Source: Tubiluchus corallicola (Eukaryota > Priapulida > Priapulimorpha > Priapulimorphida > Tubiluchidae). Taken from it: DNA of 64,000 nt. Made by a program: the position numbers and the translations under genes. The stretch covers positions 1 through 64,000 of the forward strand of contig JAQGDQ010000156.1 in assembly GCA_030141605.1 (NCBI GenBank). Direction: 5' to 3'. The notes beneath the pieces are model-generated. The model was given only the letters and a program-made list of their open reading frames with translations, was not told where the DNA came from and searched no databases. Below, piece by piece: positions 3,870-22,680 of the stretch (positions within the stretch are counted from its first letter, which is position 1; every line of letters starts with the position of its first letter).

Positions 3870-4108
3870 TTAACTCTGATGTTGCGATCGCTGAGTTTTT
3901 CTTTGGTTACGCAGTCGCCTGCGATGTTTGTTAACTTCGTCGGTTAAGTATTTAACCTTGGAAAATTCCTCGACCGTGCCTGGAGTACTGTCATAAAGTT
4001 TCCTGTGTGGGATACGAGGTCCGGGTGGTAATACGGGCTGGTGGCTAATAAATGGCTGGACTTGCCCTGTTTGTCCTGATTTAGCAAGGAAAACGCAATC
4101 GCATTTAC
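3870..4108 (-). CDS. Collagen-like gene 1, C-terminal coding exon
   Basis: This is the terminal exon of the minus-strand collagen-like gene. The acceptor TTTAG lies at 4109 and the exon opens with GTAAATGC. It completes the Gly codon split by the donor at 6753, giving ...LPGKCDC, and runs 78 residues to the TAA at 3870-3872. After the CDC pair comes a short linker, then STPGTVEE and a basic, probably helical segment KYLTDEVNKHRRRLRNQR. The terminal exon at 20614-21101 ends in the same module (STPGRVEE, then KYLNDEVHKHRRRLRNQR), which supports it as real coding sequence in a paralogous pair. I do not recognise the module. A role in chain registration or matrix binding would be inference. Confidence 0.85.
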
Positions 4109-4302
4109 CTAAATGTACAAAATGGTAACATTAGTTGTGACATTAAAGTGCCTGTAATATGAAGATAAATAAACACATTTGTCAGTCTGCGCTTAGTCTT
4201 TTTGCGCTGTTTCAAGCAAAAGTTCTTCCTGCAAGCGAATTGTGGAAAATTTTTGCTTGCTGCAGTCAAATAGCAGCCACACTTGGCACGACAGTTTTGT
4301 GG

Positions 4303-5000
4303 CATCAAAACTAGGCGTGTGACACTTGGCATCAAAACTAGGCGTGTGACACTTGGCATTAAAACTAGGCGTGTGACACTTGGCATCAAAACTAGGCGTG
4401 TGACACTTGGCATTAAAACTAGGCGTGTGACACTTGGCATCAAAACTAGGCGTGTGACACTTGGCATCAAAACTAGGCGTGTGACACTTGGCATCAAAAC
4501 TAGGCGTGTGACACTTGACATAAAAACTAGGCGTGTGACACTTGGCATCAAAACTAGGCGTGTGACACTTGGCATCAAAACTAGGCGTGTGACACTTGGC
4601 ATTAAAACTAGGCGTGTGACACTTGGCATCAAAACTAGGCGTGTGACACTTGGCATCAAAACTAGGCGTGTGACACTTGGCATCAAAACTAGGCGTGTGA
4701 CACTTGGCATCAAAACTAGGCGTGTGACACTTGGCATCAAAACTAGGCGTGTGACACTTGGCATCAAAACTAGGCGTGTGACATTTGGCATCAAAACTAG
4801 GCGTGTGACACTTGGCATCAAAACTAGGCGTGTGACACTTTGGCATCAAAACTAGGCGTGTGACACTTGGCATCAAAACTAGGCGTGTGACACTTGGCAA
4901 TAAAACTAGGCGTGTGACACTTGGCATCAAAACTAGGCGTGTGGCACTTGGCATCAAAACTAGGCGTGTGACACTTGGCATTAAAACTAGGCGTGTGACA
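4303..5000. repeat. 27-bp minisatellite in the collagen gene 1 intron
   Basis: About 26 copies of a unit beginning GGCATCAAAACTAGGCGTGT and ending GACACTT. Variation is low (CATT for CATC, occasional single changes, one inserted T near 4841). Because 27 is a multiple of three, long open frames appear on both strands. The array lies inside the intron between the exons at 3870-4108 and 6754-8820, so these frames are not treated as genes. Confidence 0.95.
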
Positions 5001-5381
5001 TCATATAATATTTATAATTCTGCTTACGTTTTGTGAATATTGTTGGTCAATTGTGTAGCATTTTAAAGTGAAATTTTTTTATCTAAATATTAAAGTATAT
5101 ATTCTGTGATGTTTGTTTTACTGCAATTAGGAAGCAACTAATGTACAGCCAAGTTTCATAATGCATGCAATTCTCCCTCAATAATTTAGTTTGGCCTCCA
5201 GAAACAACTTTCTTATCCACTAATGATCAAGCCCGGCATTGCTTAACTTGGGTTGCTAAGCACACAATATGACCTTCAGGTATTCCTCTTATCCCAACGT
5301 GAATTACAAGTTTCATCGCGCAATCCGTTAGAATCAGAAAAATGTTCAGTTTTTACATTATTAATTTCAACAGCATTTTGC

Positions 5382-5939
5382 TTAAAGGAGAACCGGATGA
5401 TTGTGTAAACATTAGTCCAGAATAAAGAATGCTCTAAAATGTTGAAAACTACAACAGCTTATTTCAAATAAAAGCTTAGGTTAAATAATAATTACCTCGG
5501 ATGCTCAAATTTCGTTAAACTTTCAAAGCCACGCGCGGCTCAGTGAATCTACTAAGATTGGCAACGGCGTCTTTTTGTCACGTGCACGTGGCCGACAAAT
5601 AGAAGGCGGTACCGTGATAACCGAGACCATGAACTGCTGTGTTAGTTTCATGACGGCATATGATGTAAAGTCCATTTCTCGTGACATCATGCGTTTATAC
5701 AGAGCTGTAACACCTATGCAAATGTGCTTGATGCGCAAGAGAAGACGCCTGCCATTGCACAAACTGTGGTTAGTTTCTGACGTAAGCAATAGCTGTGTTC
5801 GGTTGCCGTTAATTAACTTTCTAAGTTAATTATTCAAATATAAGAAACAATTGCTAACTTTTATAGGCAAGAAAATGGATATTTTGGACAGTAAATTAAA
5901 ATGAGACTGAGTCTAAACAATCGTTCGGTTTTCCTTTAA
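5382..5939 (+). mobile_element. TTAA-flanked MITE, copy 1 (piggyBac-like)
   Basis: The element is bounded by TTAA at 5382-5385 and 5936-5939. Its terminal inverted repeats of about 25 bp read AGGAGAACCGGATGATTG on the left and, reversed, AGGAAAACCGAACGATTG on the right. Such TTAA duplications are typical of piggyBac-type transposition. The interior matches 9568-10098 in opposite orientation and encodes no transposase. The roughly 84-codon frame inside it is considered fortuitous. Confidence 0.82.
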
Positions 5940-20125: not shown

Positions 20126-20281
20126 AGAGAGAGAGAGAGAGAGAGAGAGAGAGAGAGAGAGAGAGAGAGAGAGAGAGAGAGAGAGAGAGAGAGAGAGAGA
20201 GAGAGAGAGAGAGAGAGAGAGAGAGAGAGAGAGAGAGAGAGGGAGAGAGAGAGAGAGAGAGAGAGAGAGAGAGAGAGAGAG
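20126..20281. repeat. (GA)n microsatellite
   Basis: About 155 bp of almost pure GA with one GGGA interruption, flanked on both sides by TA/TG-rich sequence (TATATATACACACATATATA types). Confidence 0.97.
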
Positions 20282-20613
20282 GAATATGTATATGTATATA
20301 CTTTTTGTGCACTTTTTGTATATACACACATATATATATATATACATGCGTGTGTGTGTACTTGTAATTATGTTAAAACTTTGCCTGCAACTAGAAGCCC
20401 ATTTATGCGAAATACTTATTTTATATTAAAATAAAAAACATTAATCATCATCATTAGTATGCGAGGTAACATTGATTGGAAGTTTGCTTTTCTAATTTCA
20501 AAGCATTTATATGCATGGCTTCCTTTTCAATACTTCACATTGAAACACCAATACCAATTACCATTACCAATATTAAACTTCGTGCTGCAAATACATGCAA
20601 TGTAATAACCATA

Positions 20614-21101
20614 TTATTTATTAAATGGATATTCCTGTCCATGTGTCCTTCTTTGGTTACGCAGTCGTCTGCGATGCTTGTGAACTTCATCGTTTAAATA
20701 CTTAATATTGGAAAGTTCTTCGACTCTGCCTGGAGTACTGCGACCAATCATGTTGATTGAGAAATGAGAACTAGGCCTCTGTTCTTGTGGCCAAGGCTGC
20801 TGATGCTGCCGATGCTGCTGATCCTGCTGATGCTGCTGATGCTGCTGATGCTGCTGATCCTGCCGATGCTGCTGATGCTGCTGATGCGGCTGATGGACGG
20901 TTTCGTCCGGTAATAGAGGCCTCGGTTCTTGTGGCCAAGGCTGCTGATGCTGCTGATGCTGCTGATCCTGCCGATGCTGCTGATGCTGCTGATGCTGCTG
21001 ATGCGGCTGATACGGCTGATGCGGCTGATGCCGTTGATGCTGCTGATGCTGCTGATGCGGCTGATAGATGGTTTCGTCCGGTAATGGGCAATAACATTTA
21101 C
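20614..21101 (-). CDS. Collagen-like gene 2, C-terminal coding exon with His/Gln repeats
   Basis: This terminal exon is the paralogue of 3870-4108. The acceptor TTTTTAG ends at 21102 and the exon opens with GTAAATG, completing a split Gly codon to give PGKCYC. About 160 residues follow, including two long blocks of HQQ/HQP tripeptides, each introduced by LPDET and closed by PWPQE. The block therefore arose by internal duplication of a segment of about 60 residues. The exon finishes with the shared module STPGRVEE and KYLNDEVHKHRRRLRNQR, then a short tail to the stop. The His/Gln blocks are absent from gene 1 and come from a 9-bp CAG/CAT-type repeat that expanded in frame. Confidence 0.85.
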
Positions 21102-22176
21102 CTAAAAACACAAAATCAGTAATTTGCTAAAATGGTTTACTTAAAAAGTCCAGCCTGCCCTGTGAGACAAAGGAAAAAATAAGCGGGCTCTTCGGTTTAC
21201 GGTTTAGTTGCCTAACATCTTTCTACATTTCAGTACTTTTTTCACAGTCTGCAAGTGACTGTAGAATTTTTGCTGGGTGGGTGAGGTGAAGTAGCAACGC
21301 ACGTTGGCATGATGGGGTAGTTTTGAAAATTAGACTCCCCGGAAAACAATTAATCAAAACTTTTCTTTCTGGTGTTTCCCTTTGGCTCCATTTTTACGAT
21401 GCAATGAGTTAGCATACGCAGGTTCATCAAATTTGATGCCTTTGCACCTTTGAAAATGGCTTCTAGACCATTTTACGCCTCGGGAGATTTTAGAAAATAT
21501 AAATATCACTCCGGATATCCAACCAATTCTAACCAACTCTCGAGTTTGCCTACACTGCAAATCTAGTCTATAATAGCAGGGGACTTAGTCTCGACTTTAA
21601 AGTTTATCATTTCCTTTTACTGAATTTTGAGCTAAAATCTTGTCATATTATTTGACTTTGTTATCCAACATCTAAGTGTTCGCCAAATTTTGTTAGTTTT
21701 CTACTTTGAAACCTACTGCGGTTTCTCTGGATAGATTTTTCCATGTTGCTCTGTAGTTGTAGGTTATCAGTTGACGGTGGAATGTCTTGACATGTCAAAA
21801 CATCTTGAAAAGCACATGTTGTTCAACAAATTCGTTCCCCGTCAAAAATAATTTTTGTATAAAATTGGTTAAAAGTTGAACTCACAGCTTTCTGTTCGTC
21901 GCTGACTATCAAAAATAGCTTGAAATAAAAATTTTAACAGTTTGGAAAATAAGAATTCACTGAATTTTTACTTATAAGAGATTCTTATAATTTTTCTGAT
22001 AAGAAACATAAATACATTGATTTGCTGCCATGTGAACTATGGCTACTATGTGACTTAATATTACTGATACTACTATGTTTGTTAATATAACATTTATTAC
22101 ACTATTATTGCTGTAACACAATGTCGTCTTCTTTAATTATGTTCATAAACACTAAACATGAACGCATACTACTTAC
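21102..22176 (-). other. Intron of collagen-like gene 2
   Basis: A phase-1 GT-AG intron of about 1.07 kb between the Gly-X-Y exon and the terminal exon. Its 5' end matches the start of the gene 1 intron (GTAAGTAGTATGCGTTCATG against GTAAGTAGCATGCATTTATG). It lacks the minisatellite and MITE that enlarge the gene 1 intron. Confidence 0.75.
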
Positions 22177-22680
22177 CAGGTGGGCCTGGTAATCCACGTG
22201 GACCACGTAAACCAGGGCGACCGTTAGAACCAGGATCTCCACTAGAGCCTGAAGGACCACCCGGACCTGATGGTCCTGGAGAACCAATACCTGAAGGCCC
22301 GGAAGGACCAGGAGGACCACTTGGACCAGATGGTCCTACTGGACCAGGTGGACCCGATTGGCCAGATGGCCCAGATGGACCAGTTGCACCAACTTGGCCT
22401 GAGGGGCCAGATGGACCTGAAGGTCCCGATGGACCTGTTGCACCAGATGGCCCTGATGGACCAGACGGCCCTGTTAGACCAGATGGACCGGAAGAGCCAG
22501 TTGCACCAACTGGGCCTGAAGGACCAGAAGGACCAGTAGGCCCTGATGGACCTGTTGCACCAGAAGGACCTGATGGGCCTGAAGGACCAGGATCGCCGGG
22601 AAGGCCAGAAGGACCGGAAGGACCAGAAGGACCAGGCGGACCACTAGGACCAGACGGACAAGGATGACAGTCTTCCTCCT
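22177..22680 (-). CDS. Collagen-like gene 2, Gly-X-Y exon (168 codons)
   Basis: This internal exon of 504 nt has phase 1 at both ends: acceptor TTTTATTTTGCAG before 22680 and donor CCTG|GTAAGT at 22177/22176. It opens with [13 protein letters not shown] and ends with [13 protein letters not shown], joining KCYC in the next exon. As in gene 1, cysteine pairs bracket a GPS-dominated triple-helical stretch. The domain is four times shorter because the 42-residue internal repeats of gene 1 are missing. Coding strand, exon phases, flanking intron sequence and downstream exon all match gene 1, so this is a tandem duplicate about 14 kb away. Confidence 0.92.

Follow-up and report, generated by a model that had tools for sequence, protein, structure and literature searches.

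To which group of collagens do the two genes on the minus strand of a 64-kb stretch of animal DNA (on contig C1901; the window) belong? Gene A extends from position 9261 to 3870 and gene B at least from 22680 to 20614. Each contains one large collagen exon, composed mostly of Gly-Pro-Ser (GPS) and related triplets, a phase-1 intron and a last exon that opens with KCDC in A and with KCYC in B, and a basic module is common to both ends. In tblastn searches within the window the tail of B retrieved that of A with E = 1.4e-13, and the reverse search gave E = 1.3e-6. Together with the common exon pair, this result confirms the tandem pair of collagen-like genes with a shared basic C-terminal module that had been reported in an earlier note on this DNA. 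The pair represents, however, only two of seven genomic copies and is thus part of a wider family. Judged from sequence, this is a real collagen family which the searches described here could not assign; its anatomy can be read directly, while its mechanism, expression and tissue are what we infer.

Extent and structure of the family

A search of the whole genome (343.5 Mb, 2,344 contigs) located the basic module at seven places on six contigs, a number that is a lower bound. The copies (E = 2.9e-49 to 1.9e-4) comprise the two of the window and five others on contigs C1504 (gene D), C1472 (E), C1813 (F), C842 (G) and C1950. Comparison of 20 kb around each non-window copy revealed a GPS-collagen stretch upstream and on the same strand in all five cases, as it is for A and B. 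Four of the five (D, E, F and G) are intact. The copy on C1950 has lost the acceptor present in F and G, contains frame breaks and yielded no signal exon when the F-type signal was used for searching; it therefore looks like a pseudogene. The models of A, D, E, F and G are open from ATG to stop, acidic part included, with no internal stop codon; with the acidic exon, those of A, D and E comprise 833, 501 and 494 residues, respectively.

These five genes follow a single order of a hydrophobic leader, an acidic domain, a cysteine pair, the triple helix, a second cysteine pair, a linker that varies and the basic tail. The leader is encoded by a hydrophobic N-terminal exon, a putative signal peptide judged from its sequence, which ends in all five genes at the donor GTAATCAA and was not found for B. 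In gene A this exon (MLTFNFGNHGYLYLLALVLMSCLLTTQGDD) occupies positions 9171-9261 (this and all following features of A and B lie on the minus strand), with an acceptor directly 5' of the ATG and a phase-1 donor of 4.8 bits. A TATA box is located 191-195 nucleotides upstream in A, D and E; that of A (9450-9456) lies 195 nucleotides 5' of the start codon and is kept as CATATAAA in the paralogues D and E, and none was present in the 420 nucleotides examined for F and G.

The collagen exon of A (6754-8820) opens with ECDC, which leads into a triple helix with a 42-residue repeat block, and its last exon (3870-4108) encodes KCDC, a linker, the basic helical tail STPGTVEEFSKVKYLTDEVNKHRRRLRNQRK plus nine residues, and the stop codon. 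The collagen exon of B (22177-22680) starts with EEEDCHPC, followed by a GPS-rich triple helix, and its last exon (20614-21101) encodes KCYC, a His/Gln-rich segment and the basic helical tail. The resulting C-domain of B is 161 residues long and contains 24 His and 46 Gln; collagen exon and tail of B are both still open. The donor of the collagen exon scores 10.6 bits in either gene, and both common junctions, i.e. the start of the collagen exon and its connection to the last exon, are in phase 1 in A and B, in agreement with the equal phases noted earlier. An identical exon order had also been claimed. This holds for the collagen and last exons and not beyond them, given that B has no detectable signal exon and that the acidic exon of A had been missed. 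Similarly, the reported resemblance of flanking intron sequence is evident at the collagen-exon donor (90% identity over the 78 nucleotides spanning it) and, in a gapped alignment, over about 100 nucleotides of intron 5' of the collagen exon, but is limited to 29 nucleotides where the last exon begins. The 130 nucleotides around the end of the coding sequences are 80.8% identical.

The 5' end of gene B is less clear. Its acidic exon persists as a relic (23040-23127) in which the tract is kept and matching splice sites are absent. A possible TATA box (23481-23487) was recognised by eye, and a possible 5' exon (23385-23458) would end at the donor AG/GTAAGC (9.4 bits); when read from its ATG, this donor is out of phase with the collagen exon, and the exon is therefore probably 5' untranslated region. 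A scan of positions 22690-33500 for a signal exon of B produced weak candidates only, the signal region of A showed no similarity above shuffled sequences in 22690-33000, and the promoter region of B found none in 9262-20600 (score 28 versus a shuffle maximum of 29). Nor did the F-type signal peptide have a credible place in the window. B may thus possess an unrecognised first exon, or it may be on its way to becoming a pseudogene.

The D and E loci, and likewise the F and G loci, are collinear across most of the fetched 20 kb, mostly at 85-96% identity. Further out, three comparisons revealed only repeats and a 71% stretch in one case, nothing in another, and one match of 550 nucleotides at 79% in the third. 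Both pairs could be either alleles or duplicates. The segment carrying gene A (about 3.6-15 kb) is collinear with the loci of E on C1472 and D on C1504, mostly at 77-84% identity and with non-coding DNA included, which suggests that these genes spread via segmental duplication. Two kinds of repeats accompany gene A and the region between A and B. An element in inverted orientation (5381-5939 and 9568-10100; 85.5% identical) is found in the last intron of A and again just upstream of A, and minisatellites occur at 4300-5000 (27-nucleotide unit) in that intron and at 10693-11075 (27 nucleotides) and 17941-19120 (25 nucleotides) between the two genes.

Helix, charged ends and the search for relatives

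A strict trait of the family concerns its cysteines. Each of the six intact copies has exactly four of them beyond the leader: one pair directly precedes the helix and the other directly follows it (those of B were counted on a partial model). The cysteine pairs flanking the helix in A and B, which had been noticed before, hence turn out to follow a stricter rule, with none elsewhere. The distance from the first pair to the second ranges from 158 to 688 residues across the family.

The triple helix itself is recognised by the Pfam collagen model PF01391 (E = 1.5e-99 in A, 1.2e-22 in B). GPS accounts for 38-58% of the triplets, the upper value being that of A, whose repeat unit of 126 nucleotides (42 residues) is reflected in six arginines spaced exactly 42 residues apart. 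Two breaks each interrupt the helices of A, D and E near the helix end, first GPSSPPG or GLPSPPG (the former in A) and then GIG or GTG (GIG in A); B has a single GIG break, and F and G have none. In the cuticle collagen of the annelid Riftia, the usual hydroxyproline positions are described as being dominated by glycosylated Thr (PMC11766948), where the present proteins have Ser. If the likeness, which rests on that description, extends to modification, one might guess that Ser in the Y position is glycosylated as well.

The acidic head is built in two ways. In gene A it is encoded by a separate poly-Asp exon (8969-9073; 105 nucleotides, phase 1-1, donor of 6.6 bits). D and E likewise have an A-type signal exon followed by an Asp-rich exon whose acceptor context (CCACTGCAG) and donor (GTAACTAAC) match those of A. 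Since exon and splice sites recur in D and E, we dropped the idea that the Asp tract of A is an intronic microsatellite. F and G encode their acidic stretch, here poly-Glu, within the signal exon itself. Net charges of the acidic domains amount to -30 (A), -29 (D), -32 (E), -146 (F) and -10 (G). At the loci C1813:135080-135716 (F) and C842:303227-303110 (G) the N-domain comprises 188 and 15 residues, respectively, about ten of the latter being acidic, even though the flanks of the two loci are mostly 85-94% identical; this points to fast change in repeat length.

At the opposite end, the tails carry net charges of +9 (A), +6 (D and E) and +10 (F and G). An alignment of six tails (A, D, E, a shortened B, F and the C1950 copy) contains 16 invariant columns, including PG, E and RRLRNQR, and the elements PGxxE and RRLRNQR are common to all six intact tails, i.e. 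those of A, B, D, E, F and G. AlphaFold2, run on a monomer with two sequences, predicts one helix from residue 45 to 77, with a mean confidence score (pLDDT) of 88 for residues 51-60 and 93 for residues 61-70 and lower values at the helix ends. In seven of the eight module pairs for which it could be estimated (15 pairs in total), the nonsynonymous substitution rate (dN) is lower than the synonymous rate (dS).

Does any known family share this tail? A Pfam scan of A (modelled without the acidic exon) and of the partial B detected neither the fibrillar propeptide COLFI (PF01410) nor C4/NC1 (PF01413), in line with what had been noted, and no nematode-type Col_cuticle_N domain (PF01484). A genome-wide search for Col_cuticle_N, in which 20 candidates were scored, was also empty; it did not bridge introns and gave no match in 14 control genomes either. 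For the A tail there was no Pfam family at E<=1, and a tail model matched no fold in PDB at E<=10. Several weak matches were discarded: PF22770 (POP1_C) on B, below the cut-off with E values of 0.45 and 0.06, and four NCBIfam matches on B reflect low complexity; the sole NCBIfam match of the A tail, to a bacterial methyltransferase model (E = 0.054), and six distinct PDB sequences at E<=10 (best 0.34) are regarded as chance. The module thus lacks a credible counterpart among the models of Pfam and NCBIfam and the sequences of PDB. A match to a known collagen family would have contradicted the earlier note; the search for one gave none.

Two queries run against 5.8 billion proteins had the same outcome. 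The last 80 residues of A yielded ten candidates (among proteins of about 254-808 residues) and the joined tails of A and B 17 (about 76-241 residues), none of them at E<=10. The database does hold animals, as the RPC9 protein encoded in the window found 806 matches, the best at 93% identity. Both searches depend on shared five-residue words, and a relative of A's own length (833 residues) would escape both; owing to these limits their empty result is no proof of absence. It fits the restriction to one lineage that had been proposed, as far as sequence searches of this kind can tell. In the titles and abstract openings that were accessible, we found no description of this collagen architecture. 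Overall, the interpretation given in the earlier note is partly supported, its conjectural parts being the role as a matrix or capsule protein and the restriction to one lineage.

Proposed assembly and its alternatives

What could such proteins do? Our working model, which we put forward tentatively and which could well be correct, is that they form a small family of secreted, non-fibrillar matrix collagens in which the tail helix starts trimerisation, cysteines clamp both ends and the charged ends drive assembly. Three chains would enter the endoplasmic reticulum, where the C-terminal helix would join them and set their register. At each end, the two cysteines per chain would then be joined between chains as disulfides and so clamp the rod; such clamps would be useful because the Y position of GPS triplets is occupied by Ser instead of hydroxyproline. 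After secretion, acidic heads might bind basic tails belonging to other trimers, or else calcium and sulfated glycans. Trimers would in this way be linked end to end or into a network, within either an apical coat (cuticle) or the secretion of a gland, and the His/Gln-rich linker of gene B could add metal cross-links. Cysteines that adjoin the Gly-X-Y regions of nematode cuticle collagens are thought to help helix formation and cross-linking (PMC11304992). It is conceivable, though doubtful, that the family amounts to a separate collagen class of one animal lineage, possibly Scalidophora, characterised by trimerisation through a short, basic C-terminal helix, cystine clamps, acidic-head/basic-tail polymerisation and a charge tuned by the length of the acidic repeat. 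Collagens in general employ a limited set of trimerisation domains. If the model is true, a minimal acidic-head/basic-tail collagen clamped at each end would represent an independent and very simple solution to trimerisation. It would inform the evolution of cuticles and secretions in little-studied animals and could provide the design of self-assembling collagen materials with a template from nature, and the strictness of the four cysteines and the charge asymmetry lead to clear, testable predictions.

Several points weigh against this model. The family is known here from genome sequence alone. The AlphaFold2 model of the tail, a monomer based on two sequences, has a mean pLDDT of 63.6 and a predicted template-modelling score of 0.32, and is of low confidence outside the helix. 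Compared with shuffled sequences, the helix is weakly amphipathic (at the heptad angle, p = 0.03 in A and 0.11 in B; at 100 degrees, p = 0.17 and 0.33, respectively), and a trimeric coiled coil is therefore not established. The pair A-D is an exception to the substitution pattern of the module (dN 0.126 > dS 0.08, on 31 codons), and dS could not be estimated in 7 of the 15 pairs. The acidic tracts are triplet repeats, part of whose length may be due to slippage. Finally, the very short acidic domain of G and the lack of an acidic exon and of a detectable signal exon in B imply that acid-base pairing is not universal.

Among the alternatives, it seems unlikely that the tail ends in a propeptide, with a furin-like protease cutting the chain at RRLR or RNQR and the tail working only in folding. 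The invariant RRLRNQR does contain sites of the RxxR type, which we take to be the consensus for furin-like cleavage. For nematode cuticle collagens, cleavage at furin-like sites is described, but it takes place N-terminally (PMC10538796, PMC11304992). A cut at the sites in question, however, would free no more than 8-28 residues at the C-terminus, and the chain would retain most of the predicted helix. It is likewise unlikely that the acidic head, instead of pairing with the tail, is chiefly calcium-binding, mineral-associated or involved in granule packing. Runs of Asp or Glu, and above all the highly charged N-domain of F, would suit such a role, but the length of the head is not conserved, as G illustrates, and nothing here indicates minerals or granules.

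A byssus-like adhesive or thread collagen of a gland, cross-linked through His-metal bonds as in the preCols of mussels, is rather improbable. Mussel preCols also combine a central collagen with unusual, low-complexity ends, and their end domains contain about 20 mol% His (PMC6477608), which recalls the His-rich C-domain of gene B. Such a domain is, however, missing from A, D, E, F and G, and in B it is confined to the C-terminus, whereas preCols are His-rich at both ends. The present proteins further differ by their acidic N-domain and the cysteine pairs at the helix ends, and no silk-like or elastin-like flanks were seen. Cnidarian minicollagens, too, have a collagen core between cysteine-bearing ends; their ends are Cys-rich domains, as opposed to the two cysteines per end, long GPS helix and charged ends described here.

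Still more improbable is that the proteins are derived relatives of nematode-type cuticle collagens. The latter are secreted and have cysteine clusters adjoining the Gly-X-Y domain (PMC11304992, PMC11766948), a feature that is not diagnostic by itself, and the animal may be ecdysozoan according to the RPC9 tree described below. Yet Col_cuticle_N was detected neither in A and B nor, within the limits given above, in the genome, and nematode cuticle collagens have two or three Gly-X-Y blocks, the main one comprising 37-43 repeats, in place of one long helix with an acidic head and a basic tail. That the last exons are an artefact, unconnected to the collagen exons, is very improbable: reading through the donor does produce a GK-stop end in A, B, D and E, but the donor is strong in A and B, each of the seven copies has a last exon that opens with [KR]CxC in an unchanged phase, and collagen and last exons co-occur on six contigs.

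Other features of the window

A search of the window for Rfam families gave none above its cut-off. On the plus strand, positions 38097-38555 hold RPC9 (RNA_pol_Rpb4) as a long single open frame. In a tree of this protein with 46 sequences chosen from 120 matches listed, the window sequence and its 93% match join Priapulus and one more sequence with a support of 82/86, which is under the star level of the tool. This weakly places the animal near Priapulus, a position that one gene of 140 residues cannot settle. A second long single open frame (33701-37711, plus strand) encodes a Ser/Glu-rich protein with an SRP40_C domain, presumably Nopp140-like. At the start of contig C1901, positions 1-228 and 566-793 form an inverted repeat of 99% identity, perhaps an assembly fold-back, and an open frame for reverse transcriptase at 447-2645 on the plus strand (RVT_1, E = 1e-27) probably belongs to a retrotransposon.

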